DNA of 64,000 nt. Origin: Actinomycetes bacterium (lineage in GTDB: Bacteria; Actinomycetota; Thermoleophilia; RBG-16-64-13). Below, in pieces: positions 1 to 54,142 of this stretch; the stretch's first letter is position 1, and every line of letters begins with the position of its first letter. Location: NCBI GenBank assembly GCA_024637035.1, contig JAGXFW010000014.1, positions 1-64,000 on the forward strand, read 5' to 3'. The notes below the pieces were generated by a model, which was given only the letters and a program-made list of their open reading frames with translations, searched no databases and was not told the DNA's origin. Position numbers and translations under genes: made by a program.

Positions 1-1007
1 ACTTTGCTGTCGCCCTAACCACCCGCTACCCAGCAGGGCAGATAGTAGAAGTCGCTCATCTCGGCTACGGAGGCGGAGATCATGGCGAGTTCAGGCGCGC
101 CCACCGGAGCTGTGGCGTACGTCATGTCGAAGGTGGTGGTGCTGCTGCCATACATGACCGGAGCCCCCGGTCGGGTGGCCTGGGAGAGCACGATGCCGGA
201 AAGCACCTCGGCGTTGTGGGTGACCAGCGATCCGGAGAGGCTGATAGGTCCAGACGCTCCCGCCATGGCCATGGAGAGCACGTTCACCGGAACTTGGTGC
301 CGGGCTCCGTACATGATGGACTCGGTGGAAGCGGTGTGTAGTTGCAGAGGGCTCGTGGGGCACGTGTTCAGCGAGAAGAGGGGGCGCTCACGAAGGCTCT
401 CCCTGCTTCCCGCCACCGCGGAAGCCATCTCAACCAGGAGCTCCACGTGGGCGCCGCTGTTGGCCCCCATGTGGATGTGCTTCGTGGTGTTCCGCATGCA
501 CGTATCGAGCACATAGATATCGTGAGCGTGCTCGGGGGCGCCACCGGGGGTGAGGGCACGCTCATAGGTATTGGTCATGTCCATCGCGTCGCAGAGGCGC
601 GCGCTCTGGGCCAGGTCTTCTAGGGTGGAGTCGCGCAGTTCTCCGCTCTCGGGGTCGACGACCTTGGTGCCCTCGCCGAAGTTGGTGTAGCCCACGACTC
701 GGCCACCCATCAGGTAGTCGCGCTGCCCGTCCCGTGAGGCGAGAAGGATCTTGCCTGGGGCCGATGCGACAGCGTCTTCCACCACGCTCGCCGGGAAACG
801 GACCACGCTCGTGCTGCTATCCACGGTGCAGCCGGCCGCAGAGAGCACCTCGTGGGCCTCTTCACCGGCTACCTTGATCCCCACCTCGGAGAGCACCTCG
901 AGAGTCGCTTGGTGCACCGCTTCGCGGCCTTCTTGACTCAGCAGTTCGAAGCGGAGCATGGGGACTCCGGCGGCGTCGTCGCTCCGCGGCTTGTCTCTGA
1001 AGCTCAT
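1..1007 (-). CDS. mttB: Trimethylamine methyltransferase MttB, pyrrolysine type (cut by window edge)
   Basis: MttB transfers a methyl group from trimethylamine to the Co(I) corrinoid of its partner protein in the cytoplasm. The 330 residues visible before an in-frame TAG run from a typical MttB N-terminus to the motif CWVAGG. Blocks such as LVTHNAEVLSGIVL, YGSSTTTFD and TAPVGAPEL match the pyrrolysine-containing archaeal enzymes as I remember them. After TAG (15-17) the frame continues Gly-Asp-Ser-Lys to the window edge, matching the [Pyl]-S-D-[SA]-K context of MttB. The ATG at 1007 has a strong ribosome site (AAAGGAG, 7 bases upstream). It is the last gene seen of an operon that also holds mtbB and a corrinoid protein. 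Without amber decoding it would be a 330-residue fragment of a protein of roughly 490. The C-terminal third is outside the window. Confidence 0.93.
15..17 (-). other. In-frame amber codon of mttB, predicted pyrrolysine (residue 331)
   Basis: The TAG follows Trp-Val-Ala-Gly-Gly and precedes Gly-Asp-Ser-Lys in the same frame. This is the position of pyrrolysine in archaeal MttB (about residue 334, from memory). Reading it as a stop would remove the active-site residue and the C-terminal third of the barrel. Confidence 0.88.
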
Positions 1008-6969: not shown

Positions 6970-8373
6970 TCAGCCCGGTCCTATCTTCTCGCGCAGGCGC
7001 ACAACCGATGGGATCGACACCTCGAGCAGCGAAGCGATACGGGCCTTCGCCTCCAGACCGCGCGCCGCCTTCGGCATCGAGGTCAGCACCCCGATGTCGA
7101 GTTCCTCGCGCAGTTCCCTCATGGTCACCTCATCCGACAGCTCGCGTGTGCCTATATGGAGTTTCTCTGCCACATACGCCTTCGCCTCGGGGAGTCGCAT
7201 CTTGCGGTGGAGTTGCATCCTCGCGACCAGATCTCCGGCCGTACGGATGCCCCCCATCCCGGAGGCAAGCGCATGTGAGATGGGCATCCCGTAGGGATCG
7301 CCCGAACCCACCTATAATCCGTCGACGCGACCGATCGTCACCATCGCGACCGATGCCCGCGTGACCATACTTGTGGGCGGGGTCTCGCACATCGGCACGC
7401 CACCCACCCCGATGCCCACGTTCGCGTGGACTGGGATCGTGGCCGCCTCGGAACATGCCTTGACGAAGGTGACCGCGCGGGAGACGTTCCAGGCGGTGGA
7501 TCTGCGGGTGTTCGTATTCACGACCGGGCCGAAGATATGAGCCCCAGCCTTCTCGACCAGCTTGACCTGTTGGTGGGGGTAGAGGCCGGCGAGACGCACC
7601 CCGTCGTACGTCACCTTGCCGTGCATACCGAGCACGAACTCCGCCGCCATGCCCACTTCGATGGAGAGGTCGGTAGTGCGCGCCAACTCTTCCACGGCGT
7701 TGAGGGTGGCGAGGAACTCCGCGTCGCCGGCCGACGCCGTCGTATCGAAGTTGAAACCGTCGGCACCCACCTCGGCCATGCGCTTGCCGACATAGATCAT
7801 GTCGCGAGTGGACGCTTCGGCGGCCTCTTCCTGAGCTGATCGAGCTTCGTCGATCTTGCCCATAGGAAGGAGATCGGCCGGGTTGCCGAACGGACCGTCC
7901 GGGCGTGCGTACAGCGCCAAGTTGGGCATCGCTCCGTAGTACATGGGGATGATGGTGGTGTGCAGCACGCTCTCCATGGCCTGGAGTTCGAGTGCGATGA
8001 TCGGCTTGACCGGCTTGAACGAGTAGTCCGGGTGTCCGACTTCCATCGTATCCATGGCGAATGCCCGCTCGTACACCCTGATCGCCGACTCGCGGCTGAT
8101 GGGCACGCCGACCCCGCTTGAGCTCTGAGCGCCATAGAGCGCGTTCACCGAACCATCGTCGGTCAAGACCACTTCATCGCCCGGCACCACACCCACGATC
8201 TTCCCTTCGAAGGTGAAGAGATCGAGCAGGTAGTCCCGCTCCCCTTCACTGAGGGGTGGGATCTTGCCCCTGTCGGCAGCGTCTTCAGTGCCGGCGAGGA
8301 TATCGGCGCGGATCTCGTCCACGGTCATCTCGACCGCGTGACCGTCGCCCATGCGTGTGTAGACCTTCGTCAT
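6970..8373 (-). CDS. mtbB: Dimethylamine methyltransferase MtbB with in-frame amber (pyrrolysine)
   Basis: MtbB moves a methyl group from dimethylamine to a corrinoid protein. The frame reads 353 residues, TAG at 7312-7314, then 113 residues to TGA, giving 467 residues with pyrrolysine at 354. Archaeal MtbB is also 467 residues with Pyl at 356 (from memory). Before the amber are MtbB blocks such as HPDYSFKPVKPI, GAMPNLALY, GADGFNFDTTA and GVGGVPMCETPP. After it are GDPYGMPISHALASGM, AAGDLVARM-like and MRELREELDIG sequences that belong to the same family. The ATG at 8373 follows GGAGG. The GTG right after the amber has no ribosome site of its own, so an independent second protein is unlikely. 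It sits in one operon with mttB, the corrinoid protein and an ABC importer. Confidence 0.95.
7312..7314 (-). other. In-frame amber codon of mtbB, predicted pyrrolysine (residue 354)
   Basis: The TAG follows Gly-Arg-Val-Asp-Gly-Leu and precedes Val-Gly-Ser-Gly-Asp-Pro with no frame change. Sequence on both sides is MtbB-like and nothing is missing, so the codon is most simply read as an amino acid, as in methanogens. Confidence 0.93.
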
Positions 8374-8517
8374 GGCAGGTATTCCTCCGAAGCAGATTCC
8401 AAAGAGATTCCCCTACGGCTCAGCCTAACACGACGGGATGTTGCGAGCCATGTACGGGTGGACAGAACACTTCCCGGTGCATTCACGGCACTTGTGGCCA
8501 GGCACAAAAGGCGCGGG

Positions 8518-9396
8518 TCAACCCTCCCATGCCCGCACCGCATCGGTAACGCAGCGCAACTGTCGCTCGAACGCCGCCTCCGTCGCCCACGCGACGTGAT
8601 CGGTGACGGCGAGACGACCGTCCGCGAGGAGGCCCCGCACATCTTCGCGTTCGAGCCAGCTGCGGTCGGTCTCCCACGGACCCACGTCGAGTGCCGCTCC
8701 GCCCACCCTGCCGCTGGCAAGCGCGGCGATCAGGGCGTCGTGATCGATCAGGCATGCCCGCGCCGTATTGACGAGCAGGGCGCCGCGGTTCAAGCGGTGG
8801 AACTGCTCGGAACCCAGCACGAGCCCCGCTTCCCCGGGCAGATGGAGCGTGATCACCGACGCCCGCTCCAGCACCTGCTCGAGCGACGCCGTCTCGACGC
8901 TTTCGATGGATCGCCTCGTGACTACCAGCACCTTGCAGCCCATGGCCGTGAGGGCGATGGCGACACGGTGGCCGATGCCCCCGAATCCGACCACTCCAAC
9001 CGTGCGTCCGGACAGCTCCCCACCCAACGCTCCGAGGGCCCCACCTCGGATCTGTCCGCCTCGCAACAGGTGGAGAAGCAGAGCGATGGTGAACTCGGCC
9101 ACAGCCGCGCTTGAGTACTCGCCGGCGTGGGTGACCGCCACACCCCGCTCGGCGCACGCCTCCACGTCGATGTGATCGAGGCCGGCCGTGCGTGAGACCA
9201 CCGTGCGCAAGCGGGGCAGACGGTCGAGTTCGGCGGCGCCCACCGTCGAGCGCACCTCGACTATCGCCATCTCGCAGTCAGAGTGGTCTGCCGCGCTCTC
9301 ATGCAGGGTGCGCGGCTCGAGCCGGACCCTGCTCCGAACGTCGGCCGGGAGGCCCGCCGACTCGCCCGCCGTCACTTCGAACAGCACCAGGCTCAC
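8518..9396 (-). CDS. D-2-hydroxyacid dehydrogenase family protein (copy 1)
   Basis: A 292-residue NAD(P)-dependent oxidoreductase of the D-isomer-specific 2-hydroxyacid dehydrogenase family. The Rossmann motif is GVVGFGGIGHRVA (about residues 135-147). The putative catalytic Arg lies in NTARACLID, the Glu in DVGPWETD and the His in VTDHVAWATEAAF. The GTG start at 9396 is chosen because AGGAG lies upstream and because the paralogue at 17666-18544 begins at the same point (M-S-[LI]-V-[LM]-F-E). It lies between mttB-like and mtbB genes, an unusual place for such an enzyme. The substrate is unknown; a 2-oxoacid or hydroxyacid derived from betaine or amine side chains is a guess. At 292 residues it is slightly shorter than typical family members (about 310-330). 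Confidence 0.85.
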   Translation of the reverse strand: MSLVLFEVTAGESAGLPADVRSRVRLEPRTLHESAADHSDCEMAIVEVRSTVGAAELDRLPRLRTVVSRTAGLDHIDVEACAERGVAVTHAGEYSSAAVAEFTIALLLHLLRGGQIRGGALGALGGELSGRTVGVVGFGGIGHRVAIALTAMGCKVLVVTRRSIESVETASLEQVLERASVITLHLPGEAGLVLGSEQFHRLNRGALLVNTARACLIDHDALIAALASGRVGGAALDVGPWETDRSWLEREDVRGLLADGRLAVTDHVAWATEAAFERQLRCVTDAVRAWEG

Positions 9397-9471: not shown

Positions 9472-10902
9472 TCAGGCGACGTTGAGGTCCGCCCGCGCTT
9501 CCGCGATCACCTCGTCGATCTCGCGCTCGATGTCGTCGGAAAGCGGCTCCACCACGTGAGTGGCGAGGATCTCGGTCACCCGAGCCCGTGCGTGCTGCTG
9601 GATGGTCGGCCGTCCGTCCCTGTCCCAATCACTGTAGTTCCGGCGGTCGGACAGCCGCGGCGTCCACACCTCACCGGCCCTCATGAACTTGCGCGTATGG
9701 TCGAGGGCGAGGAATCCACCTTCGCCCATGACCGCCTCGTGGATCGCCGAGACGCCAAGCGCATCTTCGTCCATGGTGATGCCGCGCATGAACCTGGTGA
9801 CCCACGCCATGATCTCGTCGTCGAGCACGATGAGTTCGGCAGACGTGTGGATCACGTTGTCACCCCCACCCAAAGCGGCCAGGACGTTGGCGCCGGACTG
9901 GACCGCGGGGAGAAGCGTGAGCGCACGCTCGAAGCCGTTCTGATCGTCCATGGCCCGGGCACTCGAGCCGAATGCCGTGACGCTACCGGGGATCTTGTAG
10001 TAGCGCGCCATCTGCGCCGTGGCGACCGACAGTAGCGCGACCTCTGGGTTGCCCCAGATGCTCTGTCCCGTGCGCATGTCCATCACCGTCGGGCGGGGTT
10101 CATAGAGGATCGGCGCTCCCGGGTTGACCACCTGCGCAAGCACGAGCCCGGCCAGGATCTCGGCGTTCTGTTGCACCAGGGAGCCGGCCAAGGACATCGG
10201 GCCGGTAGCTCCCACGATCGGCGCCGGGATCACCCCAAGGGGCACACCCGCGGCAGCCGCCACCATGAGTGCTCGGGTCGAATCCCCCGACAGGGTGAGC
10301 GGGCTCAGCGGGGACACGGAGATCTGCAGCTGAGGACGCGCCACCAGCGCCTCCATGCCGCCGTGGACCGCGGCCGCTATCTTCAGCGAGTAGCGGACCT
10401 CGTCGCCCGACTCCACCGCCACCCTGAGCGGCTTCGTCGTGTTCCTCAGCATCGTGGCCACCCGCACGGGGGTCACTATCTCGGGCTCCACGTCTTTCGG
10501 GGTAGCCGGGGAAGCCATGTGCGTGTTGGGAAGGGCGTCCACAAGCCGGGTGAAGTCGGCCACGTCCTTGACCAGGGCATGGCGTCGTTCCCCGGTCTCG
10601 TGATCGATGACGAACGGGCTCCCGGTGGTAGACAGCGTGTAGAAGCGCCCCGGCACGAGGGGACAATCATGCTCGGGGATGCGGCCGCAGAGCGAGAACT
10701 CCGCCGGACTCGACTCCACCGCCCTGGCGACCAGGTCCGCCGGGAACGTGACACGTTCTCCCCGCACGCCACAGCCGGCCGCTTCGAGACGCTCGCGGGC
10801 ACCGGCGTCTTGGATGAGCATGCCCGTGCGCCCCAGGACTTCCAGCGTGGCCGCGTGGATCGCGTCCAGATCCTCGGGGCTGAGCACCTCTAAGAACTTC
10901 AT
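9472..10902 (-). CDS. MttB-superfamily methyltransferase without in-frame amber
   Basis: A 476-residue cytoplasmic corrinoid methyltransferase of the MttB superfamily. It shares the barrel blocks of MttB (NTTKPLRVAVESGDEVRYSL, GSLVQQNAEILAGLVLAQ, PGAPILYEPRPT) and a C-terminus ending with an acidic helix. Where pyrrolysine would stand it reads AFGSSARAMD with ordinary codons, so it belongs with the non-Pyl members, whose characterised examples use glycine betaine, proline betaine or carnitine. The ATG at 10902 follows AGGGAG; the upstream in-frame extension overlaps the corrinoid gene and is not family-like. Its start is 25 bases after the corrinoid protein gene, the classical pairing of a methyltransferase and its corrinoid partner. 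The substrate is probably a quaternary amine, but cannot be fixed here. Confidence 0.9.
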   Translation of the reverse strand: MKFLEVLSPEDLDAIHAATLEVLGRTGMLIQDAGARERLEAAGCGVRGERVTFPADLVARAVESSPAEFSLCGRIPEHDCPLVPGRFYTLSTTGSPFVIDHETGERRHALVKDVADFTRLVDALPNTHMASPATPKDVEPEIVTPVRVATMLRNTTKPLRVAVESGDEVRYSLKIAAAVHGGMEALVARPQLQISVSPLSPLTLSGDSTRALMVAAAAGVPLGVIPAPIVGATGPMSLAGSLVQQNAEILAGLVLAQVVNPGAPILYEPRPTVMDMRTGQSIWGNPEVALLSVATAQMARYYKIPGSVTAFGSSARAMDDQNGFERALTLLPAVQSGANVLAALGGGDNVIHTSAELIVLDDEIMAWVTRFMRGITMDEDALGVSAIHEAVMGEGGFLALDHTRKFMRAGEVWTPRLSDRRNYSDWDRDGRPTIQQHARARVTEILATHVVEPLSDDIEREIDEVIAEARADLNVA

Positions 10903-10927
10903 GATGCGCACTCCCTTCGTTGCCGTC

Positions 10928-11581
10928 TCAACGGATCCCGGCCAGTTCCCGGGCGACCTCGACCGCGCGGGCGGCGTCGGGCGCAAACCCGTCGGCACCC
11001 ACCCGGTCGGCCCAATCCTGATCGATAGGCGCGCCTCCGAGCAGCACCTTGACCTTCGAACGCAACCCCGCCGCCTCCAACGCCTTGATCACGGCTTCTT
11101 GCTGGTGCACCGTGGTCGTGAGGAGGGCGGACAATCCGAGGAACCCGGCTTCGGTCTCCCGCACCTTCTCCACGAAGACCTCCACGGGCACGTTCACCCC
11201 GAGATCGTCGACGGCGAAACCCGAGGCCTTCAGCATCGCGGCGACGATGTTCTTCCCGATGGAGTGCAGATCGCCGTGCACGGTGCCGAGCACCACCCGC
11301 GCATGTGTGGGCATCTCTTCGCCGGCACCCGTCAAGAGCGGTTGAAGTACCTCGAGCCCGATCTCCATCGATTGCGCACCGCGCACCAGGTCCGGCAGGA
11401 AGTACGAGCCCTTCTGGAACTCCACGCCCACGCTGCGGATGCCTTCGGTCAGGCCTTCGCTCACGATGGTCAGAGCCGGAAGCCCCGCTTCGAGGGCCTT
11501 CTCGGTGAGTGACTTCACCAACGATGGCTCGCCGTCCAGGACCGCCGCACGGATCTCAGCCAGTAACGCTTCTGTATCCAT
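10928..11581 (-). CDS. Methylamine corrinoid protein (MttC/MtbC family)
   Basis: A 217-residue corrinoid carrier. The N-terminal four-helix cap (about residues 1-90, with GVEFQKGSYFLPDLV) is followed by a B12-binding Rossmann domain. The cobalt-ligand motif is D104-L-H106-S-I-G109, with VLLGGAPI near residue 180. It receives methyl groups from the MttB/MtbB-type enzymes of the operon and passes them to a second methyltransferase. It is the first gene of the minus-strand methylamine operon, so the promoter should lie in the 180 bases separating it from the divergent PucR-type regulator. Only one corrinoid gene is visible for three methyltransferases; whether it serves all three is unknown. Confidence 0.93.
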   Translation of the reverse strand: MDTEALLAEIRAAVLDGEPSLVKSLTEKALEAGLPALTIVSEGLTEGIRSVGVEFQKGSYFLPDLVRGAQSMEIGLEVLQPLLTGAGEEMPTHARVVLGTVHGDLHSIGKNIVAAMLKASGFAVDDLGVNVPVEVFVEKVRETEAGFLGLSALLTTTVHQQEAVIKALEAAGLRSKVKVLLGGAPIDQDWADRVGADGFAPDAARAVEVARELAGIR

Positions 11582-11762
11582 CCAAGAAACCCCCTCTGTC
11601 TACCAAGACTCCCGCGTTCTGGGTTCAGAGTAGCACCGGCTGGACCGGTCATCCATGTGGCAAACCCCAGAAGGGCGGGTAGACGAGGGGCCGGTCTTGT
11701 GCCACCATACAAAACTGCCCATGGGACGAACCCCGATACCTTCGGAGGGGAGCAGAACACGC

Positions 11763-13454
11763 GTGACCGTGACAGTCCGCCAAGCACTTCAGACATGGCC
11801 GTTGACCCAGGCGCAGCTGCTTGCCGGGGCGAGGGGCCTCGACAACGAGATATCTTGGACACACATCGTCGAGATATTCGAAGACCCCTACTTCCCATCC
11901 CCCGGGATACTGCTTTGCAGTACGGGCTACGGGTTCAAGGACAACCCGGACCTACAGGCCAGCGTGATGCAGCACGTGGGCGAGGTGGGCATCGCCGCCT
12001 TCCTCATGAAGACCGGCTACGAACTCAAGGAGATACCCGACCGCATGTTGGCCGACGCGGAACGGTTCTCCATCCCCTTCCTCAAGCTCCCCCAGAACAT
12101 CCCATTCGTGGACGTGACGAAAGCGGTGGCCGGCCTTCTACTCGAAAAGGACGCCGAGATCCTGAGGCAAGGGCAGGCGATCCTGCGCCGGCTGATGGAG
12201 GCCCAATTGAGCGGAGGCGGGTTTTCGGCCATAGCTCAGGTCCTCGGTGAATCGCTCTCGTGCTCAGCCTTCATCACCAACCGCAGGGGCGAGATGCTCT
12301 CCACCTACCTAAACCTGTCGCCCAAAGGCTCTGCTCCTCTTCGAACGGACGATGCCGGTGATCCTTCGGTCATCATGCACCTGAAACACTACTCGCAGAA
12401 GATCGGCGCGGCCGCCGGTCTCGACAGGCTCTTCCGACTCAACAAGATCGTCTCCCTCGATTCGGGGCTGGGGACGGGCCAGAAGGCGGCCTTCATCGCT
12501 CCCATCAACTTCGAGAACCGCATGCGCGGTTTCGTCGGGGTGGTGCGTGATCAGCAGATGACCGATCTCGCACTGTGGGCGATCGAGGCGGCCGGGTTGG
12601 TTGCCGCAACCGAGTACCGCACCCTGAGAGTCGAAGAGGTCACCGAACAGCGCTTGGTGGGGAACTTGCTCGACACACTCATCACCCACGACCAGCTCTC
12701 CGACCCGCTGGCATTCCATCGCTTGGCGTCCTGGGGGTACGACGTGAGCATGCCCTGCCGCATCGTGCTCATCGAGATCGAGTTCGAGGGCGGCACGTCG
12801 CGAAAGGAACGGTCGATCGAATACCTGCGGCCTCTGGTGGAGCTCTATTGCCGGAGTTCCGACTACGAGCCCGTGATACGTTTCGTCGGCCCTACTTCCA
12901 TTGCCCTGAAGCAGGTGGCACAGGATGATGAGGCCCGCGAGCGCAAAGATCTCGCGGAGTTCTACCTCCGACTCACCCGCCACCTCCGCACGGCCAAAGT
13001 GTGGGTCGCGGTGGGCCGGCCGGCCCCGCCGCTATCGGGGCTCCGGGCGACCCACGCCGAGGCGACGCGGGCCATGACCATCCTCCGCCGCACGCAGTCG
13101 CAGGGTGGAGCACTCTGCGCCGAGGACCTCGGCCTCGACAACGTGCTCCTCGATCTGGCGACCTCCGACAGAGCGCTCGACTACGCCCGCGGCGTCCTCG
13201 CCCCGCTGCTCGGACCGGAGGGCCTTCGCGGACGGTCGAACCTGCTCTCGACCTTGCAGGCGTACCTCGAGGTGGATGCAGACACGCAGAAGGCAGCGGA
13301 TCGCCTCTTCGTTCACCCGAACACGGTCAGGTACCGGCTCAAGACCATCGAAGAAGTCACGGGCCGCTCTCTTCAGTCGAGCAACGACCGCACCATGTTC
13401 ACCATCGCCCTGCGCCTGCTCGACCTGAGCGACACCTCGGCGGCCGGCGTCTAG
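11763..13454 (+). CDS. PucR-family transcriptional regulator
   Basis: A 563-residue regulator. The N-terminal PucR domain (about residues 1-130) includes the block PSPGILLCSTGYGF. A central GGDEF-like region follows, and the C-terminal PucR helix-turn-helix (about residues 485-550) includes AADRLFVHPNTVRYRLKTIEE. The GTG at 11763 is chosen because it follows GGAGGGGAG and the PucR domain begins right after it; an ATG at 11721 is an alternative. It is transcribed divergently from the corrinoid/methyltransferase operon and is probably its regulator. Family members respond to nitrogen compounds such as purines or proline. It ends at TAG. A hairpin at 13463-13492 separates it from the convergent transporter operon. 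Confidence 0.88.
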   Translation: MTVTVRQALQTWPLTQAQLLAGARGLDNEISWTHIVEIFEDPYFPSPGILLCSTGYGFKDNPDLQASVMQHVGEVGIAAFLMKTGYELKEIPDRMLADAERFSIPFLKLPQNIPFVDVTKAVAGLLLEKDAEILRQGQAILRRLMEAQLSGGGFSAIAQVLGESLSCSAFITNRRGEMLSTYLNLSPKGSAPLRTDDAGDPSVIMHLKHYSQKIGAAAGLDRLFRLNKIVSLDSGLGTGQKAAFIAPINFENRMRGFVGVVRDQQMTDLALWAIEAAGLVAATEYRTLRVEEVTEQRLVGNLLDTLITHDQLSDPLAFHRLASWGYDVSMPCRIVLIEIEFEGGTSRKERSIEYLRPLVELYCRSSDYEPVIRFVGPTSIALKQVAQDDEARERKDLAEFYLRLTRHLRTAKVWVAVGRPAPPLSGLRATHAEATRAMTILRRTQSQGGALCAEDLGLDNVLLDLATSDRALDYARGVLAPLLGPEGLRGRSNLLSTLQAYLEVDADTQKAADRLFVHPNTVRYRLKTIEEVTGRSLQSSNDRTMFTIALRLLDLSDTSAAGV

Positions 13455-13498: not shown

Positions 13499-14323
13499 CT
13501 ACCTCTTGGCAGCGTCCACAGCGGTCAGCTGCAAGAGACCTCGCGTTCCCACCAATCGGAGCCCGATGATCACGGCGATAACCGAGATGCCGATGAACAC
13601 CGAGGCGATGGCTGCCACCGCAGGGCTCACCTCATAGCGAAGCGATGTCCAGATGACCACGGGCAGGGTCACCGTGCGCGGAGCGGTGAGGAACAGCGAC
13701 ATCATGAACTCGTTGAACGAGATGACGAACGCGAAGAGCGCACCGGCGGCCACTCCCGGGAGGATGCTCGGAAGCGTCACCAGGAAGAACGTGCGCAACG
13801 GCCCCGCCCCAAGTACCCGGGCGGCTTCTTCCGCCGCTGTATCCGTGCCGGCATACACTGCTCGTATCGCGAGATAGGCGATGGGCGTGCCCCACAATGA
13901 ATGGGCGATCATGACGCCCGGGAACGTCCCGCTTAGCCCTATCCTACTCGCGAACATCAGGAGCCCCACGGCGAGGATGAGTCCGGGCATGAAGAAAGGC
14001 ACCATGACGCCGAAGTTCAGGCCGGTCGCCCGCCTACCCTGGGCTTTCGCCAGACCGAGTGCGGCCGGCGTGGCCAGAAGCAACGACAGCACACTGGATC
14101 CCGCGGCGATGATGAGGCTATGCTGGAAGGGTCCTGTCCAGCGAGAGGCGGTGAAGATCTCTTCATACCAACGGAGCGAGAAATCGAGGCTCGGTTTCGC
14201 CATATATGGTGACGAGCCGAACGACAGCCAGACCACGATGACGAGAGGCGACAGCAAGAAGATCACCGCGATGAGGCCCAGCACGCGGTATGAGAGAGAT
14301 GGTAGCGACCAACGCGGGTTCAC
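13499..14323 (-). CDS. ABC transporter permease, spermidine/putrescine PotC type
   Basis: A 274-residue inner-membrane permease with about six membrane segments. The transport domain has the coupling motif EEAARVLGAGPLRTFFLVTLP (residues near 165-185), typical of PotC/YdcV proteins. It is the last gene of a four-gene importer operon; its start overlaps the end of the PotB-type gene (ATGA-like, 14320-14323). It ends at TAG. Known family substrates are polyamines, but related systems carry betaines, so the ligand here is open. Confidence 0.9.
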   Translation of the reverse strand: MNPRWSLPSLSYRVLGLIAVIFLLSPLVIVVWLSFGSSPYMAKPSLDFSLRWYEEIFTASRWTGPFQHSLIIAAGSSVLSLLLATPAALGLAKAQGRRATGLNFGVMVPFFMPGLILAVGLLMFASRIGLSGTFPGVMIAHSLWGTPIAYLAIRAVYAGTDTAAEEAARVLGAGPLRTFFLVTLPSILPGVAAGALFAFVISFNEFMMSLFLTAPRTVTLPVVIWTSLRYEVSPAVAAIASVFIGISVIAVIIGLRLVGTRGLLQLTAVDAAKR

Positions 14324-15225
14324 GCGACGTTCCTTCTGGCCATGACTCGGGCCACGCTCTGCGCGACGACCAAGACCACCACGATGAGGCTGAACAGTGT
14401 GACGGCCAGCCCCGCGCCTCTCGGCCAGTTGAACGCGGTGAGGAACTGGCTCGAGATTTCCTGAGACACGAACTTACCCGCCGAACTGCCCAGCAGTTGA
14501 GGCGACGCGTACTCTCCCATGGCCCAGACGAAGATCACCGTGGCGGCGGAGGCGATGCCGGGCGCGGAGAGCGGCAGCGTCACGTGGAGGAAGGCTTTCA
14601 AGCGAGAGGCCCCCATGTCTCGTGCACTCTCGACCAGGCTACGGTCGATCCCGGCGAGCACCGCCGCCATGATCAGGATCGAATACGGGAGGGTGATCTG
14701 GACGATCCCGATCACGACACCGAACGTGTTGTACACGACCCGAAGAGGTTCGTCGATCAATCCCAAACTCATGAGACCGTCGTTGAGTGCGCCCCCAGGA
14801 CTGAGGATGATCAACCACCCGTAGATCAGCACCAGGATGTTCGTCCAGAGCGGCACGATGACAGCGAACAGCAGGATCACTTTCAGACGCGGCCCGCATC
14901 GGTTGATCCAGTAGGCCAACGGATAGGCGAGGGCCAAACCCAGCACCGTCACCAGAAGACTCACCCCCAGCGTGTAGCCGAAGATCCTCAGATAGAAGCC
15001 GTCGGTGAGAAGAGTCGTGTAGCTGTCGAGCGTCCACGTGCCCTCTCTGTACGCGCTGCCGGATTCGTGCACCGAGAGGCTGATCCGTCCCATGAACATG
15101 ATAGGTACGATGAAGAAGAGGGCAGTCAGAACTACGGCAGGCAGTGCGAGCCACACCCTGTCAAGTCGGGCCCAGGAGCCGCGTGACGCCCCGCCACGAG
15201 TCTCGGAAGCCGTACCGTCACCCAT
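14320..15225 (-). CDS. ABC transporter permease, spermidine/putrescine PotB type
   Basis: A 301-residue permease. A hydrophilic N-terminus of about 25 residues precedes the first membrane segment; the coupling motif is ESARDMGASRLKAFLHVTLP. It forms the heteromeric channel with the PotC-type protein. Its ATG overlaps the stop of the ATPase gene by one base (TGATG at 15225), indicating coupled translation. The order binding protein, ATPase, PotB, PotC on one transcript is typical of this family, although the binding protein is often last. Confidence 0.9.
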   Translation of the reverse strand: MGDGTASETRGGASRGSWARLDRVWLALPAVVLTALFFIVPIMFMGRISLSVHESGSAYREGTWTLDSYTTLLTDGFYLRIFGYTLGVSLLVTVLGLALAYPLAYWINRCGPRLKVILLFAVIVPLWTNILVLIYGWLIILSPGGALNDGLMSLGLIDEPLRVVYNTFGVVIGIVQITLPYSILIMAAVLAGIDRSLVESARDMGASRLKAFLHVTLPLSAPGIASAATVIFVWAMGEYASPQLLGSSAGKFVSQEISSQFLTAFNWPRGAGLAVTLFSLIVVVLVVAQSVARVMARRNVA

Positions 15226-16352
15226 CAGGCCCTCTCCACCACGATCACATCACGAGCGTCGAACGCGGCGAACACCCGGTCGCCTCGTTCGAACACCGCT
15301 TCGCGCCTCGGCAGGTCCACCAGCAGATCTCCGCCATCTGGCAGGTTTATCACGTACTCGTACGATTCACCCTTGTACGCCCACAGCTTGACCACGCCCT
15401 CGATCACGTTGTCTTTGGTGGGCCGGTCCGCGTGGAGCGTGATCGCCCGCGGCCGTATCATGACGGCGCACTGCTGGCCGACGTCGCCGGAGTGGATCCC
15501 CATCAGGTCGAGTCCACTCTCCGTTCGGACCGTGCACGTCTCGCCGCTGCCGGCCGCGACGGACCCATCGAGTCGGTTCGACTCCCCGATGAAGCCGGCA
15601 ACGAAGGCCGAGGCCGGCCGGTCGTAGACCTCGCTGGGTTCCGCGTCCTGCGCAATGAGGCCCTCGTCCATCACGATGATGCGATCGGACATGGTGAGAG
15701 CCTCCTCCTGATCGTGTGTCACGAACAGCGAGGTGATCCCAAGGTCCACCTGTAGCTCTTTCAACTCAAGCTGCAATTGCTGACGCAGTCGCCTGTCGAG
15801 GTTGGTGAGTGCCTCGTCGAGCAGTAGTATCGCCGGCTCCACCACGATGGCTCGCGCCACAGCGACCCGCTGCCGCTGCCCCCCGGAGAGCTGCGAGGGC
15901 TTCCGCTTCTCGTAGCCCTCAAGCCGCACCCGTCGCATCGCCGTCGCCACACGGTCGTCTATCTCGGCCTTGCTCACGCCCCGCATCTTCAGGCCGAAGG
16001 CCACGTTGTCGTGCACGTTCATGTGCGGGAAGAGCGCGTAGCTCTGGAAGACCATGGCGGTGTTCCGCTTCTCGGGCGGCAGGTGAGTCACGTCGCTGCC
16101 TCGGATGAAGATACGACCGGCCGTGACCTCCTCGAGTCCAGCCACCATCCGCAGTGTCGTGGTCTTGCCACAGCCGCTCGGTCCGAGTATCGACACGAAC
16201 TCGCCCGAAGCGACCGAGAAGTCGATGGAATCCACGGCCACGACCGGGCCGAAGTGCTTACTCAGACCCTGCACCTCGAGGTCGGGGGTAGTGGCGCCCC
16301 CACCGGGGGGCGCCACGCTGTCCTTCATCGGTTGGACCGAGACGTCTGTCAC
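15225..16352 (-). CDS. ABC transporter ATP-binding protein, PotA type
   Basis: A 375-residue ATPase. Walker A is GPSGCGKTT, the signature LSGGQRQR and Walker B ILLLDEAL. A C-terminal TOBE-like domain spans about residues 265-370, the arrangement of PotA/FbpC. The start is a GTG at 16352 within a GTGA overlap with the binding-protein gene, preceded by AAGGAG; the longer in-frame start would overlap the upstream gene further without a ribosome site. A Pro/Gly-rich linker of about 20 residues precedes the ATPase domain. Walker B reads DEAL rather than the usual DEPL, a mild departure. Confidence 0.9.
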   Translation of the reverse strand: MTDVSVQPMKDSVAPPGGGATTPDLEVQGLSKHFGPVVAVDSIDFSVASGEFVSILGPSGCGKTTTLRMVAGLEEVTAGRIFIRGSDVTHLPPEKRNTAMVFQSYALFPHMNVHDNVAFGLKMRGVSKAEIDDRVATAMRRVRLEGYEKRKPSQLSGGQRQRVAVARAIVVEPAILLLDEALTNLDRRLRQQLQLELKELQVDLGITSLFVTHDQEEALTMSDRIIVMDEGLIAQDAEPSEVYDRPASAFVAGFIGESNRLDGSVAAGSGETCTVRTESGLDLMGIHSGDVGQQCAVMIRPRAITLHADRPTKDNVIEGVVKLWAYKGESYEYVINLPDGGDLLVDLPRREAVFERGDRVFAAFDARDVIVVERA

Positions 16353-17524
16353 TGTCCGAGGATCTCCTTCTTCCAACGGCTGTCCCAACTGTCCCAATCC
16401 TGGTAGAAGATGTCCCAGTCGTAGTCATGGAACGCTTCCCAGTCCTCGTTGGACACCGGAGGATGATCGTAGGGTACTCCGTCAGGCAGGGTCACCTTGC
16501 TGTTGGCGATGCCCATCCACTGCCGCGCGCACCACTCTTCCTGGCGGTCGGGCGACGTGATGAAGTTGATGAACGCTTCGCCCAGATCCTGGTGCTTGGT
16601 GCCGCGCACGACGAAGAAGTAGTCGATGTATCCGACCTGACCGTCGGTCGGGATGACCGTGGTGAGGTTGAGGCGCTCGCCCACGTCGCCCATCGCCGAC
16701 TGCGTGGCGTAGTAGTAGCCGGCCGTGAGGTCACCCCGCTCGAGAAGGCCGAAGAACTCTCCACCCGATTCGTACCACTTCAGCATGCTCGGAGCAAGCT
16801 CTTTGGTCTTGGCGAACACCTGGTCGGTGAGAGCAGGGTCGGTGAGAGCTTCGCGCGGGTCCAGACCGAGGGCGTAGATGGCCGGATAGATGCTGTAGTA
16901 GAAGCCTTTGTCGAACGATATCTTGCCCTTGAGCTCGGGCTTGTCCCAGAAGTCGGCCCATTTGGTCAAGTCGGTGCCTGCAGCCGTCACGATGCCGGCA
17001 TACGCGCCGTCGAACGGCACACCGAAGCCATCAGCGGCCGGCTTCTGCGCCAAGAGGGCCGGGAAGGTGTCGGCCATGTTGGGGATGTTCTCCGGGCGGA
17101 TCGGCAGGAAGAGGTTGTCCTCGATGACCGCGTAGTACACCGAGCCATCGCCGATGGTCACGTCGAACGGCGGATCGTCGGCCGGAGCTGCTTTGATCTT
17201 GCTCGGGATCTCGGTCCATACTCCCTGCACCTCGACCTCGGCTCCAGTGATCTCCATGAACGGCTTGGCGAACACCTCGATGAACATCTCGGTATAGGGG
17301 CCGCTCCACGCTGTGGCGATCAGTTTCTCGCCCTTGTACTTGTCGCGGATGTCGGCGTACGGATCCGCTACGGTGGTCTCGGTGGTGACCGGTGCAGCCA
17401 TGGTCTCGGTTGTGGCAGGCGGTGCCGTGGTGGTGGTCGTGTCGCCGCAGCCTGCGAGAGACAGGAGCAGCGTGACGACGATGACGACAGCGAGCACTAG
17501 GCTCACTTTCCTACGAGCAGACAT
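16349..17524 (-). CDS. ABC transporter substrate-binding lipoprotein, spermidine/putrescine PotD type
   Basis: A 391-residue exported lipoprotein. The N-terminal signal ends in a lipobox LAGC at about residue 26, followed by a Thr-rich linker as in the other binding proteins of this window. The mature region resembles PotD/AfuA-type proteins: TAWSGPYTEMF near the start and an ATQSAMGDVGERL block. The C-terminus is rich in Trp, Asp and Tyr, often seen in binding proteins for quaternary ammonium ligands, but I cannot identify the aromatic cage. It leads the operon with the ATPase and two permeases. The ligand could be a polyamine, choline or a betaine. Confidence 0.87.
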   Translation of the reverse strand: MSARRKVSLVLAVVIVVTLLLSLAGCGDTTTTTAPPATTETMAAPVTTETTVADPYADIRDKYKGEKLIATAWSGPYTEMFIEVFAKPFMEITGAEVEVQGVWTEIPSKIKAAPADDPPFDVTIGDGSVYYAVIEDNLFLPIRPENIPNMADTFPALLAQKPAADGFGVPFDGAYAGIVTAAGTDLTKWADFWDKPELKGKISFDKGFYYSIYPAIYALGLDPREALTDPALTDQVFAKTKELAPSMLKWYESGGEFFGLLERGDLTAGYYYATQSAMGDVGERLNLTTVIPTDGQVGYIDYFFVVRGTKHQDLGEAFINFITSPDRQEEWCARQWMGIANSKVTLPDGVPYDHPPVSNEDWEAFHDYDWDIFYQDWDSWDSRWKKEILGQ

Positions 17525-17665: not shown

Positions 17666-18544
17666 TCACTCCGACCACGTGCGGACCGCGTTGGCGACGA
17701 TCTCGATATAGCGGGCGAATGCTTCCTCGGTCGCCCAGGCAAGATGATCGGTGATGACCAGATGGCCTGAGTCACGGAGACGCACCACATCGGGGCGATC
17801 GAGCCACCCAGGGTCGGTCTCCCATGGGCCGACGTCGAGTGCCGCACGCGCGACGTGCCCGTCCTCGATCACCTCGAGCAAAGCATCGTGGTCTACGAGA
17901 GAGGCCCGAGCGGTGTTCACGACAAACGACCCGGACGGCAGCGAGCGAAGCTCCTCGAGACCCAACACTCGCCCTGCCTCACCGGGGAGATGCAGGCTGA
18001 TCACCGAAGACTTCGCAAGGACCTTAGTCAGGCCCAGCTGCTCGAAGCCTTCAACGGGTCGCTGGTCGTACACCAACACCCGGCACCCCAGGCCGCGAAG
18101 CCCCTCGGCGACGCCCTGGCCTATCCGACCCCCACCCAACACCCCCACGGTGCGACCGGCGATCTCTGCGCCGAGGCTGTCGGTGAGACCCTCCGCAATC
18201 TGACGCCCTCGGGCCAAGTGGAAGATGAGGGTCAGCGCGAACTCGGCAACGGCCACCGTGCAGTAGCCGGCGACCGTATCAACGGCTATCCCTCGGGTCT
18301 CGCACTCGGCTAGATCCACGTGGTCGAGGCCGGTGGTGCGCGTCAACAGCGCACGAAGACCGGGGAGCTGATCGAGTTCGGCCGGTCCCACGGAAGAACC
18401 CAGCTCCACGATCGCAAGCGTGCAGTCGGTGTGACGGTGAGCCGCCTCGGCCAGCGTCCCGCTCTCAAGCCGCATGCGGGCCCGCACGTCGGCGGGCAGC
18501 GCGTCGATCTCTGCAGGTGCCGCCTCGAACATGACGATACTCAA
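17666..18544 (-). CDS. D-2-hydroxyacid dehydrogenase family protein (copy 2)
   Basis: A 292-residue paralogue of the protein at 8518-9396 with the same length and layout. The Rossmann motif is GVLGGGRIGQGVA. NTARASLVD supplies the putative catalytic Arg, DVGPWETDPGWL the Glu and ITDHLAWATEEAF the His. The start codon is TTG at 18544, preceded by AAGGGGG; the alignment with copy 1 supports this unusual start. It follows a thiamine-diphosphate enzyme gene and precedes a polyamine/betaine-type importer. The recurrence of the pair transporter plus this dehydrogenase suggests a shared catabolic role, but the substrate is unknown. Confidence 0.85.
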   Translation of the reverse strand: MSIVMFEAAPAEIDALPADVRARMRLESGTLAEAAHRHTDCTLAIVELGSSVGPAELDQLPGLRALLTRTTGLDHVDLAECETRGIAVDTVAGYCTVAVAEFALTLIFHLARGRQIAEGLTDSLGAEIAGRTVGVLGGGRIGQGVAEGLRGLGCRVLVYDQRPVEGFEQLGLTKVLAKSSVISLHLPGEAGRVLGLEELRSLPSGSFVVNTARASLVDHDALLEVIEDGHVARAALDVGPWETDPGWLDRPDVVRLRDSGHLVITDHLAWATEEAFARYIEIVANAVRTWSE

Positions 18545-28197: not shown

Positions 28198-29465
28198 CGG
28201 GGAACCTCCCAATCGGAGTGAGCGGACGCAAATAGGGGGGACGGTGTGAGGGTGCGCAGGAGGCGCCGAAGGAGCCGGGCGGCAAGAAGGACGCCGGGAT
28301 CAACCGCGACCCCGCCCAATCGCTCCATGCTTCGCACGTCGAACTCCATGAGGTCGACGCCGACCAGACGCGCCTTCGATAGCACTCCGGCGGCCGTTTC
28401 CTCGATCAAGCGCTCGAGCGTCGCCGCGTCCAACCCGGTGCGGTCGCGGAACCGCACCGCCCGCGTGGCGACGTTCGCCCCCACGTCGAGGTCGATCGAG
28501 ACGTACACGTGGCCGGCCTTCGAGCCGGACAGCGCCCACGCAACCCTGGCGGGGTTGGTAGCGATCTCGTCTCGGGTGAGCACCGTGACGCCCCGCTTGC
28601 GCAGGGCGGAGTAGGCAGCCACATACTCCTGGATCCGGGAGTCGTCGATCTTGCGGGCCCGGCTGGGCGGAGTGTCTGCCACGCCCACCAGATAGAGGTT
28701 GCGAGGATCGACCGTGCCCTCGTCGATCAGGTGGTGAAGGAAGGTACTCGCGTTGTACGAGTCGGGCCGATCGCGAAGTAGCGGGTCGGCGGCATCGTAC
28801 CTCGACCCCGGGTTCGTCTCCGCGTCGTAGTGCACGGCGCCCGCTGTCGCCGTGGTCGGGATGGCGTCGGTGTGGGCGTCGAGCACGATCACGGCAAGGT
28901 CTTCCGCGCCGTGGCGCCGCGAGAGAGCGCGCAACACGCCTCCGGTGAGCGAGTGGTCCACCCCCACCATGACGGGCACGGCAGGCAGGACGGTGCTCTC
29001 GACGAACGCCTCGACCGCTTCGGCCAGACGGAGGCAGCCTCCGTCATCGACGAACCGGGCGAACGCCGTTTCCGCGATCGCCTCCCGGTGTTCCGGTCCC
29101 GGCGTAGGCGACAGCCAGGCCCATTCCCCTGGCGCTGCGGTCCGGTCGACCGCGATCGAAGCACCTCCGATGACAGGCCCAGGGCCTCTGGCGGCAGCAC
29201 CTCCGGCGGCAGGCGCTTGCCCATGGGAGGCTGCTGCTCCTTGGGCGGCCGCTACCCCTTCGGCGGCCCCGACTCCCGCAGCAGCCGCGAGAGCACCGAG
29301 CAGATCCACCGGGTCCCTGCCGGCATCGATCCAGGCATGCTTCGAACGTACGGCCGCGGTCCGCTCGTCGGGGTCGGCCATGGCACCGAACAACACGGCG
29401 ACAGGCGATTTCGCTCCCTGCCCGGAGCCGGTGCCGGGCGGCTTCTCAGCGAGAGAAGAAGTCAT
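28194..29465 (-). CDS. Arginase/agmatinase-fold (ureohydrolase) family protein
   Basis: A 423-residue protein with the binuclear-manganese motifs of the ureohydrolase family. GVDHSLTGG supplies the first His, VLDAHTDA the D-x-H-x-D group and VSIDLDVGAN the final D-x-D. The family consensus after the last motif is D-P, here V-G. The N-terminal 110 residues carry a Gly/Ala-rich segment absent from typical agmatinases (about 300 residues). It could hydrolyse a guanidino compound or an amide such as formylglutamate. Its place between a methyltransferase fusion and an AOR module is unusual and suggests a specialised substrate. The start was taken at the ATG at 29465, which overlaps the upstream gene by 20 bases. 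Confidence 0.75.
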   Translation of the reverse strand: MTSSLAEKPPGTGSGQGAKSPVAVLFGAMADPDERTAAVRSKHAWIDAGRDPVDLLGALAAAAGVGAAEGVAAAQGAAASHGQAPAAGGAAARGPGPVIGGASIAVDRTAAPGEWAWLSPTPGPEHREAIAETAFARFVDDGGCLRLAEAVEAFVESTVLPAVPVMVGVDHSLTGGVLRALSRRHGAEDLAVIVLDAHTDAIPTTATAGAVHYDAETNPGSRYDAADPLLRDRPDSYNASTFLHHLIDEGTVDPRNLYLVGVADTPPSRARKIDDSRIQEYVAAYSALRKRGVTVLTRDEIATNPARVAWALSGSKAGHVYVSIDLDVGANVATRAVRFRDRTGLDAATLERLIEETAAGVLSKARLVGVDLMEFDVRSMERLGGVAVDPGVLLAARLLRRLLRTLTPSPLFASAHSDWEVPR

Positions 29466-31815
29466 CCCTCGCCTTCCGAAGCTGCCGCACGTTCTCGAGC
29501 GGTGACCGCGGCGCGATGCCGCAACCCGGCGTCAAGAAATGCGTTCCCGCCTCGAGCGCCGCGATCGATTCATCGTAGACTTCCTCGGGCGTCCCCATGA
29601 ACATGGTGGTGGCCGTTGCCACGTTGCCGAACACGGCAACACCCGCCCGCTCGGCGACCTCCACCGCGTACTTCATGTCGGCCTTCTCCTCGATGCTGAT
29701 ACCGGCCACGCCGGTATCGCACATGAGTGGCACGATCTTGTCCGTGTTCGCGCAGATGTGCAGAACCAGCGGGCCGTCGACGGCGGCCGCTACCTCCGTG
29801 ATCACGGGCTTCACGAACCGCTCCCACGAGCGCGGGCTCATCAGCGCGGGGCCCGATGACGGCTCGGCCATCACGAAGTAGTCGGCGCCTTGAGCGAACG
29901 CCCACTTGATCACGTCGATCATCGCATTCTTCGTGACCTCGAGCACCTGCTGCACCTTCTCCGGCTCCTTGGCCGTCCACCTCATGAACTGTTCGGTGCC
30001 GACCAGGTTGGCGGCGCAGGTGAACGGTCCCTCGGTCTCCCCGTAGACGGCGTATTCCTCGCCCACCCGATCCTTGAGTATGCGGAACTGCTCCTCGAAC
30101 ATGGGGAAGCGGCCGCGGGTGAGGAAGTCGGCGGGGTAATCGAGGGCATCCAGGCCCTCCGCGAGCGGGTGGCCCTTGATCGAGTACTGCATGTCGATCC
30201 TTGGCTCTCCGAGGGCACAGCCGAAGGCCTCACTCATGGGCACGATGTCCCAGCCCATCGCCTTGACCCACTCGAACCCGGCGTGCTCGACGCCGGCGAG
30301 CGCCAGCGTGGCCATGGCCACCGGGTCGGTGTCGGCGAGCGGCCGCGCGGCGCCACAGGCCTCCATCAGATCGACCATGCCATAGGTGGTAGTACATCCC
30401 ACCGGGGTCTTGTCCACCGCCCGGCCGGCCAATCGCTCGAGGACACGTTCCTTCGGCTTCATGGTTCTGCCTCCCTTCGAAACCTTGCCGAGACCCGATT
30501 CACCCGCCAGGGCTTCGTCGATCAACTCCGTCAGGTCGCGCACCGGCGTGCCGTGGCCCACCCGTTTCGCTCCCTCACCCAGGTTGTTGCGACAGAACGG
30601 ACAGATGGTGACCATCTCCTGCGCGCCGGTCTCCTCACCCTCCGCGATGCGCTTGGCCGCGTTCTTCGTGGCCCACTCGCCGAAGCCGGTCATCACCCCG
30701 CCGCCGCCGCCGCAGCAGTAGGAGTTGGCGCGAATGCGCACCATCTCGCGCAGTTCGACGCCGGGGATCGCCTCGAGAAGAGCGCGAGGAGCGTCATACA
30801 CGCATTCGGCGTCGTCCTGCCCCAGGTAGGCGCCCGGGTACTGGGTCGAGCCGTCTTCGTCGACGGAGAAGGCAGCCATGTGCCGCCCGGTGTGACACGG
30901 GTCGTGGTAGGTGACTACCCGGGGTTCGACGGCCTGAAGGTCGAGGTCGCCTTCCTGCAGCAGGCGATGGAAGTAGTCCACCACGTGCACCACCTCGATG
31001 CCTTCCATGGCCTCCTCGTAGCCGACGGCGAGGGCGTAGTCCTTGTGCAAGGCGCGGAAGCAACCCGCGCACGAGGTGACGATCGTCTCCACTCCCTGGT
31101 CGCGGTGCAGTCGCTGGAACGTCTCGAGGTTCGCCTCGGCAAGGCGCTTGAAGGTGTCCACCTCGCCCAGGCGCATGGCCGTGGAACCGCAGCAGAGTTC
31201 GTCCTCGCCGAGGATGCCGAAGTCTATGCCGAGCTTGTTGAACACGGAGGCCGTCGCGGTGGGCATGACCCGGCCCGCCTGGTTATAGGCGCCCGTGCAG
31301 CCGACGAAGTAGAGGATCGGGGCCGCTTCCTTCTGGATATCCTTGATCGGCTTGGACCCCTTGCGGAATGCGCGGGTCCAGTCGGTCCTCACCCTGCGGG
31401 GCCCTTGGTACGGATTGCTGTACGTGGCGATCGACTGCGCGATGATCTTGTGGCTCGGGAGTGGTCCCACCCCTTGCTCGACCGCCCGCCTGCGCATCGC
31501 CTCGATCATCTCGATGATCACCGGCTTGTGGTCGAGTTGACACTGGTTCTGGCACCCGCCGCAGAGGGTGCACTTGTAGATTGCGTCCACGAGGTCTTGA
31601 TCGAGCTCGAGTTCGCCGGTCAGGATGCCGCGGGCGAAAGCGATCTTGCCCTTGGAGGCCATGTAGCCTTCGAACCCGAACTCCGTGCCGGCGGGGCAGA
31701 TGTCGGCGTTCGTGGCCGGCGGTCCGTAGTCGTAGGCGGTCTTGCAGGTGCCGCACGCGGTGCAACGCCACACCGAGTGCTCCAGTTCTTCCAGTGTCGG
31801 AATGTTCCAGTCCAT
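29446..31815 (-). CDS. Fusion of HdrD-like iron-sulfur protein and MtaA/MtbA-type zinc methyltransferase
   Basis: A 789-residue two-part protein. Residues 1-440 are HdrD-like: CTACGTCKTAYDYGP and CTLCGGCQNQC, then CCG domains with VGCTGAYNQ, CCGSTAMRLG, TSCAGCF, HDPCHTGRH, CCGGGGGVM and CPFC. Residues 452-789 form a uroporphyrinogen-decarboxylase-fold methyltransferase of the MtaA/MtbA type. The zinc ligands are H686-x-C688 and C765, with 76 residues between the cysteines, the same spacing as His237, Cys239 and Cys316 of MtaA (from memory). The ATG at 31815 follows GGAGG. No stop separates the two halves, yet a complete ribosome site and ATG precede the second half. It should take methyl groups from a corrinoid protein; the acceptor thiol or pterin is unknown. 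Confidence 0.85.
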   Translation of the reverse strand: MDWNIPTLEELEHSVWRCTACGTCKTAYDYGPPATNADICPAGTEFGFEGYMASKGKIAFARGILTGELELDQDLVDAIYKCTLCGGCQNQCQLDHKPVIIEMIEAMRRRAVEQGVGPLPSHKIIAQSIATYSNPYQGPRRVRTDWTRAFRKGSKPIKDIQKEAAPILYFVGCTGAYNQAGRVMPTATASVFNKLGIDFGILGEDELCCGSTAMRLGEVDTFKRLAEANLETFQRLHRDQGVETIVTSCAGCFRALHKDYALAVGYEEAMEGIEVVHVVDYFHRLLQEGDLDLQAVEPRVVTYHDPCHTGRHMAAFSVDEDGSTQYPGAYLGQDDAECVYDAPRALLEAIPGVELREMVRIRANSYCCGGGGGVMTGFGEWATKNAAKRIAEGEETGAQEMVTICPFCRNNLGEGAKRVGHGTPVRDLTELIDEALAGESGLGKVSKGGRTMKPKERVLERLAGRAVDKTPVGCTTTYGMVDLMEACGAARPLADTDPVAMATLALAGVEHAGFEWVKAMGWDIVPMSEAFGCALGEPRIDMQYSIKGHPLAEGLDALDYPADFLTRGRFPMFEEQFRILKDRVGEEYAVYGETEGPFTCAANLVGTEQFMRWTAKEPEKVQQVLEVTKNAMIDVIKWAFAQGADYFVMAEPSSGPALMSPRSWERFVKPVITEVAAAVDGPLVLHICANTDKIVPLMCDTGVAGISIEEKADMKYAVEVAERAGVAVFGNVATATTMFMGTPEEVYDESIAALEAGTHFLTPGCGIAPRSPLENVRQLRKARDDFFSR
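30460..30475 (-). promoter_or_regulatory. Internal ribosome site and ATG for the methyltransferase half
   Basis: GAAGGGAGG on the minus strand stands 6 bases before an in-frame ATG (30462) exactly where the MtaA/MtbA-like domain begins. The 338-residue product from this ATG would have the normal length of a free methyltransferase. It may allow both a fused and a separate protein to be made. Confidence 0.65.
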
Positions 31816-31866
31816 CGTCCCTCCAAGCGCCGGGGTCCCCCCGACGGTCACGGTCGGCTGCCTCCG

Positions 31867-54051: not shown

Positions 54052-54060
54052 ACCTCTCCT

Positions 54061-54142
54061 TCGGTAGTCCGGCCACCTGAATCGATCTCAGGTCCGTGAC
54101 TTTGCGACCCCACCTCGCGATGGGTTTGCCATTTTCGGGACA
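54061..54142 (-). promoter_or_regulatory. Predicted cyclic-di-GMP-I (GEMM) riboswitch
   Basis: Reading the minus strand, the leader contains in order GGCAAACC, GCGA, GTGGGGTCGCAAAGTCACGG, a stem (ACCTGA...TCAGGT) and GGCCGGACTACCGA, the conserved elements of the GEMM class I aptamer as I know them. The ribosome site AGGAGAGG starts right after the last stem, so ligand binding could control access to it. The 220 bases beyond (54143-54362) show no gene; they should hold the two divergent promoters. Confidence 0.82.

Follow-up and report, generated by a model that had tools for sequence, protein, structure and literature searches.

The closest described counterparts of the gene studied here are Methanosarcina MtbB and the Pfam family PF09505, with which it shares a full-length domain, one UAG at the pyrrolysine position and a PYLIS_2 region following it. 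Unlike the Methanosarcina enzyme, it belongs to an actinobacterium with four paralogues in one genome, and the copy described here sits in a gene island that also encodes a non-Pyl MttB homologue, a corrinoid protein and ABC transporters. The pyl systems of Desulfitobacterium, Acetohalobium and Bilophila resemble the present one in the split PylSn and PylSc, in pylB and pylC, and in a tRNA-Pyl(CUA) encoded near methylamine methyltransferase genes. They differ from it in two respects, since the genus studied here appears to have no pylD and the tRNA of the host's family has U73 as its discriminator base.

Pyrrolysine in Actinobacteria is already known. Of the 81 bacterial PylRS genes counted in a review, two are actinobacterial (PMC11764691), and expression of Pyl-type mtbB and mttB in Actinobacteriota MAGs from Stordalen Mire has been published (PMC10805028). 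These MAGs belong to the same phylum and have the same mttB and mtbB truncated at TAG, transcribed there; the passages concerned leave aside pyl biosynthesis genes, pylD, stop-codon use and an RNA element. An earlier note on this DNA had called genetically encoded pyrrolysine rarely reported in actinobacteria, which is a fair description given the count of two in 81, although the Stordalen Mire report means that the present case is not a first. The Sifarchaeia (Asgard) system is alike in combining high UAG stop use with pyrrolysine decoding and raises the same question of discrimination, but it is archaeal and has complete pylBCD (PMC9723677). A review finds no established signal or factor that would direct a UAG toward pyrrolysine or toward stop, and describes PYLIS elements as little conserved (PMC9499178). 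Three points look new here: an apparently pylD-less genus, a quantified dual use of TAG as stop and sense codon, and covariation evidence for a PYLIS-type hairpin.

The mtbB gene and its surroundings

The window, by which we mean the whole stretch of 64,000 nucleotides analyzed, is contig C30 of a 3.57-Mb, 100%-complete MAG. The gene is defined by the following features.

6970-8373, minus strand: mtbB, predicted dimethylamine--corrinoid methyltransferase, 467 aa with UAG read as pyrrolysine
7312-7314, minus strand: UAG codon 354, the predicted pyrrolysine position, in the same column in aligned MtbB and at the start of the PYLIS_2 match
8384-8388, minus strand: GGAGG, mtbB ribosome-binding site identified from sequence

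Read from 8373 to 6970 with TAG as a sense codon, the frame gives 467 residues with a single TAG, at codon 354, and ends in TGA; as separate ORFs, its halves comprise 353 aa before the TAG and 113 aa after it. The earlier note placed the gene correctly, leaving its strand unstated, and was also right that it is intact apart from this codon: the read-through protein matches Pfam Dimeth_Pyl (PF09505) end to end (669 bits, E 3e-201, residues 4-462 on positions 3-462 of a 463-position profile). UAG354 shares one column with 28 aligned MtbB proteins, which do not include archaeal MtbB; a search of plasmids for MtbB, as a source of archaeal sequences, gave no match. MtbB is carried by 21 of the 399 genomes of the class, in two families, and the PF09505 matches listed for the class contain exactly one TAG each, except for one fragment that ends before that position.

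A reading of the TAG as a true stop, which would make this a pseudogene or two genes with the downstream part a relic, gains from TAG being common as a stop in the host genome. Several observations argue against it. The orthologue in the sister species (G070) keeps the TAG, and similarity ends at the stop codon. In frame, this comparison gives a dN/dS of 0.03 for the part preceding the TAG and 0.25 for the part following it, versus 1.3 and 1.8 for the other two frames of the downstream part, which, as judged from these alignments, is under purifying selection in frame. The TAG is conserved across the class with the same two flanks, and pyl genes are present. Inspection of the sequence found no ribosome site near upstream of the GTG that directly follows the TAG, as the earlier note had said, versus the good site, GGAGG, that precedes the start ATG. 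We regard a true stop as highly improbable, and decoding of UAG354 as a pyrrolysine-type residue as very likely.

An AlphaFold2 model of the read-through protein, built with 28 read-through homologues, has a confidently predicted, barrel-like fold (pLDDT 91.5). It places residue 354 on the strand that occupies model positions 351-354 (Met1 is absent from the model, whose residue 353 therefore corresponds to codon 354). Its matches among solved structures are generic barrels only, including B12-dependent methionine synthase and betaine-homocysteine methyltransferase.

The other genes around mtbB in the window are as follows.

15-1007, minus strand: mttB, trimethylamine methyltransferase, up to its in-frame TAG (15-17), the rest lying beyond the contig start
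1109-6487, minus strand: oligopeptide/nickel-type ABC transporter genes beside mtbB, with a family-library run covering the solute-binding protein
8518-9396, minus strand: NAD-dependent 2-hydroxyacid dehydrogenase-like protein, found in the genus only among the genomes searched
9472-10911, minus strand: MttB-superfamily methyltransferase without TAG, non-Pyl, quaternary-amine type
10928-11581, minus strand: cognate corrinoid protein (MtgC/MtbC-like)
11655-13454, plus strand: PucR-type regulator, divergent from the methyltransferase genes
13499-17524, minus strand: PotABCD-like (polyamine/betaine-type) ABC transporter genes, with a family match for the ATPase only
17666-18544, minus strand: second genus-specific 2-hydroxyacid dehydrogenase-like protein

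The island around mtbB holds a non-Pyl MttB, a corrinoid protein, a PucR regulator, two ABC transporters, two dehydrogenases and a TPP enzyme. This content suggests that it may import a larger methylated amine and demethylate it stepwise, releasing dimethylamine. Elsewhere in the window, a single 801-aa ORF (29446-31851) joins a TfrB/Hdr-like iron-sulfur part to an MtaA-type methylcobamide methyltransferase, and a c-di-GMP-I-GGC riboswitch aptamer lies at 54059-54139 on the minus strand (67.7 bits).

Pyrrolysine genes and TAG stops in the host genome

The earlier note had proposed a search for pylT, pylS and pylBCD elsewhere in the genome. The same genome contains tRNA-Pyl(CUA), PylSn, PylSc, PylB and PylC in one cluster on contig C33; of the genes sought, pylD is missing. 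All four proteins score above curated cut-offs (PylSn 101 bits, PylSc 292, PylB 445, PylC 331). PylSc keeps the RPMLAPNLYYLL, MLN, VYG and PWAG motifs around the known Pyl pocket, and the tRNA (L009:6677-6748) has a CTA anticodon and an encoded CCA. The cluster adjoins mtbC, an mtbB, an MtaA/MtbA-type methyltransferase, a TMAO/amine-type permease and mtmB, the last with one in-frame TAG (719 bits). The named relatives of the host MAG are Thermoleophilia/Actinomycetota MAGs, and together with the pyl cluster they support the proposal of genetically encoded pyrrolysine in an actinobacterium.

Nine methylamine methyltransferase genes of the host genome have an in-frame TAG: four mtbB, four mttB and one mtmB. 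Non-Pyl MttB and MtmB homologues are also present. The mttB at 15-1007, a second Pyl gene of the window that the earlier note did not mention, reads ...CWVAGG*GDSK across its TAG and has one TAG inside. Contigs C30 and C28 both begin inside mttB a few codons beyond the TAG (TAG at bases 15-17, gene 15-1007), and repeated mttB 3' parts probably broke the assembly at these two starts.

Some further observations concern the pyl systems of the class. In the host's family (L009 and its relatives L068, L071, L073 and L075), tRNA-Pyl has U73 (...CUCCUCCA), and in the other family of the class it has G73, the base described as conserved in tRNA-Pyl (PMC11764691). The U73 family may supply new orthogonal pairs. 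In G076 (C1:102754-104109, L073), PylSn appears frame-shifted relative to PylSc, through either a sequencing error or a real shift; a fused PylSn-PylSc was discarded for this genome, as both proteins begin in the ORF but PylSn continues in another frame for its second half. We also rejected, as a conserved arrangement, an MtbC-MtbB-MtbA fusion that TAG read-through would produce on C33, since G070 does not keep MtbC and MtbB spaced in frame. In G084 (C191:759-2159), an MttB above the TIGR02369 cut-off has no internal stop and lies beside a TAG-bearing MttB, a possible case of replacement of pyrrolysine by a sense codon.

By a simple codon-score gene caller applied to a 400-kb sample, TAG ends 33.7% of 371 called genes in the host genome. 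The share is 40.8 and 40.6% in two Pyl-less relatives and 44.7 and 26.5% in two Pyl-encoding ones, and second (back-up) stops are not enriched after TAG-ended genes. TAG is at most slightly depleted as a stop in the host genome, and reading every TAG as pyrrolysine would lengthen many proteins. As roughly one gene in three ends in TAG as an ordinary stop, decoding would be conditional or context-dependent. In several Pyl genes a single reading frame contains both an internal sense TAG and a terminal stop TAG (L009:7858-7860; the mtmB end, G000 C33:457779).

Apparent absence of pylD from the genus

A search with TIGR03911 (PylD) at 1e-5 came up empty for both species of the genus, namely the host genome and its only congener, G070. 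The hunt was widened to TIGR03911 at E up to 10 and to a profile of 12 PylD proteins from the class; the latter scored at most 27 bits in the host genome, over a Rossmann stretch, versus 372 and 362 bits in relatives from the host's family. A PylD under another name was considered and rejected, because only short Rossmann stretches matched and these are present in Pyl-less genomes too. The relatives G004, G076 and G080 keep pylD, and in relatives it directly follows pylC. In both genomes of the genus, other genes follow pylC, with no pylD remnant, and the assemblies are unbroken through that place.

From these searches, pylD appears to be absent from the genus, in the MAGs of both species examined. 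It might instead be present in the organisms and missing from both assemblies, which are MAGs in 34 and about 110 contigs. However, the two MAGs are 100% and 99% complete, each runs on without a break from pylC into a downstream flank that has different genes and no remnant, and it is unlikely that assembly lost the same gene twice independently. We consider such an assembly loss quite improbable. A search of the literature, with most subscription journals outside it, found no mention of a pyl system without pylD.

Methyl transfer by the MtbB family is thought to need the electrophilic imine made by the PylD step. The persistence of pylB and pylC without pylD in both species might mean that UAG is decoded not as canonical pyrrolysine but as some different residue, such as 3-methylornithyl-lysine (which PylC makes) or a cyclised variant. 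Against this stand the conserved PylSc pocket, the presumed requirement for the imine and the retention of the codon in nine enzymes, and we judge a noncanonical residue unlikely. Since pylB and pylC are retained and the PylSc pocket residues are conserved, the simplest reading is that the last oxidation of pyrrolysine would be carried out by another enzyme. A pyl cluster without pylD predicts an undiscovered last-step enzyme or else a modified residue.

The two 2-hydroxyacid dehydrogenases near mtbB, which are 54% identical paralogues confined, among the genomes searched, to the two pylD-less genomes, were considered as stand-ins for PylD and set aside. The predicted structure shows an ordinary D-2-hydroxyacid dehydrogenase fold, PylD does not figure in its list of the 50 best matches, and one copy in G070 has an internal deletion. 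Their role as stand-ins remains a weak idea.

An RNA hairpin after the mtbB UAG

Three RNA features lie downstream of UAG354.

7215-7314, minus strand: match to Rfam RF02509 PYLIS_2 (mtbB), 100 nt from the UAG
7224-7241, minus strand: covarying hairpin 5'-CGGCCGG AGAU CUGGUCG, 74-91 nt after the U of UAG
7234-7236, minus strand: GGA glycine codon (+26), invariant in 66 mtbB, whose A is the first loop base

The PYLIS_2 match begins exactly at UAG354 and covers the whole 100-nt model (81.7 bits, E 2.8e-18, gathering threshold 36). Its 3' helix is the hairpin at +74 to +91, with the same AGAY loop, which spans 18 nt and has a 7-bp stem in 29 aligned mtbB. Compared with RF02509 as given, this helix gains synonymous-site covariation here, whereas the 5' helix is poorly supported, with 76% of cells paired and some pairs mostly broken.

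In the 29 aligned mtbB, two pairs of the hairpin have a third codon position as each partner and show compensatory variation. Among 20 new distinct sequences held out, these pairs were kept in 37 of 40 wobble-wobble cells, versus a mean of 23 and a maximum of 32 of 40 in 5,000 shuffles. Across the whole gene in 66 sequences, which represent about 21 lineages with less than 60% identity at third positions, the pair +75/+90 has the greatest excess pairing of all 77,073 third-third pairs tested. Relatedness is largely controlled in this ranking because all columns share one tree. The much less variable pair +78/+87 ranks 180th in the same set. The glycine codon at the loop is GGA in all 66 mtbB; GGA accounts for 13% of glycine codons across the genome, and its share does not exceed 12% at any of 17 other invariant glycine codons of mtbB. 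These patterns show a constraint at the RNA level.

PYLIS was helpful but not essential in published tests, according to a passage that summarizes earlier work (PMC3639795). The hairpin could instead serve mRNA stability, processing or internal initiation. Its position, 74-91 nt beyond the UAG, is well past a ribosome paused there, and its GGAG, some 14-15 nt ahead of a conserved Met codon, looks like the core of a Shine-Dalgarno site. This spacing is long for initiation, however, a Shine-Dalgarno role leaves the covariation of the stem unexplained, and the same hairpin is the 3' helix of the PYLIS_2 family. We give a function other than decoding nearly an even chance.

Our proposed explanation is that the genome's own tRNA-Pyl(CUA), charged by the split PylSn/PylSc, would decode UAG354 and so yield a full-length MtbB whose last barrel strand bears a pyrrolysine-type residue, and that this enzyme would move a methyl group from dimethylamine to a corrinoid protein. 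Residue 354 would be authentic pyrrolysine, its final oxidation being performed by an enzyme other than PylD because pylD is absent from the genus. Correct decoding would depend on methylamine induction and/or mRNA context, with the mtbB hairpin and a conserved mttB stretch favoring UAG decoding in those mRNAs; induction by methylamines has been reported for Acetohalobium, as cited in a passage of PMC9723677. We hold this account to be highly probable, with an MtbB whose UAG354 is read by the genome's own tRNA-Pyl at its core; the substitute for PylD and the conditional, hairpin-aided decoding are its inferred parts. More tentatively, and with rather less than even confidence, we suggest that pyrrolysine is completed by an enzyme unrelated to PylD and that, since TAG still serves as a normal stop, each kind of gene has its own mRNA signal to mark its sense UAG: in mtbB the AGAY-loop hairpin, and in mttB the separate GCG-UUG-GCA stretch. 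If so, pyrrolysine decoding would be partly signal-directed, as selenocysteine decoding is. The clade combines abundant TAG stops, numerous pyrrolysine genes and a hairpin kept by compensatory synonymous changes, and the hairpin gives a precise construct for testing the steering of UAG.

The mttB stretch is a nine-base synonymous invariance located 66-74 nt after the UAG (e.g., L210, L198-L222). At codons +22 to +24, GCG is found in 24/24, TTG in 23/24 and GCA in 24/24 sequences from two families; the stretch uses rare codons, TTG making up 12% of Leu codons and GCA 8% of Ala codons. A candidate mttB hairpin at +58 to +76 was rejected because it is not kept in the other family, and the invariant codons alone remain.
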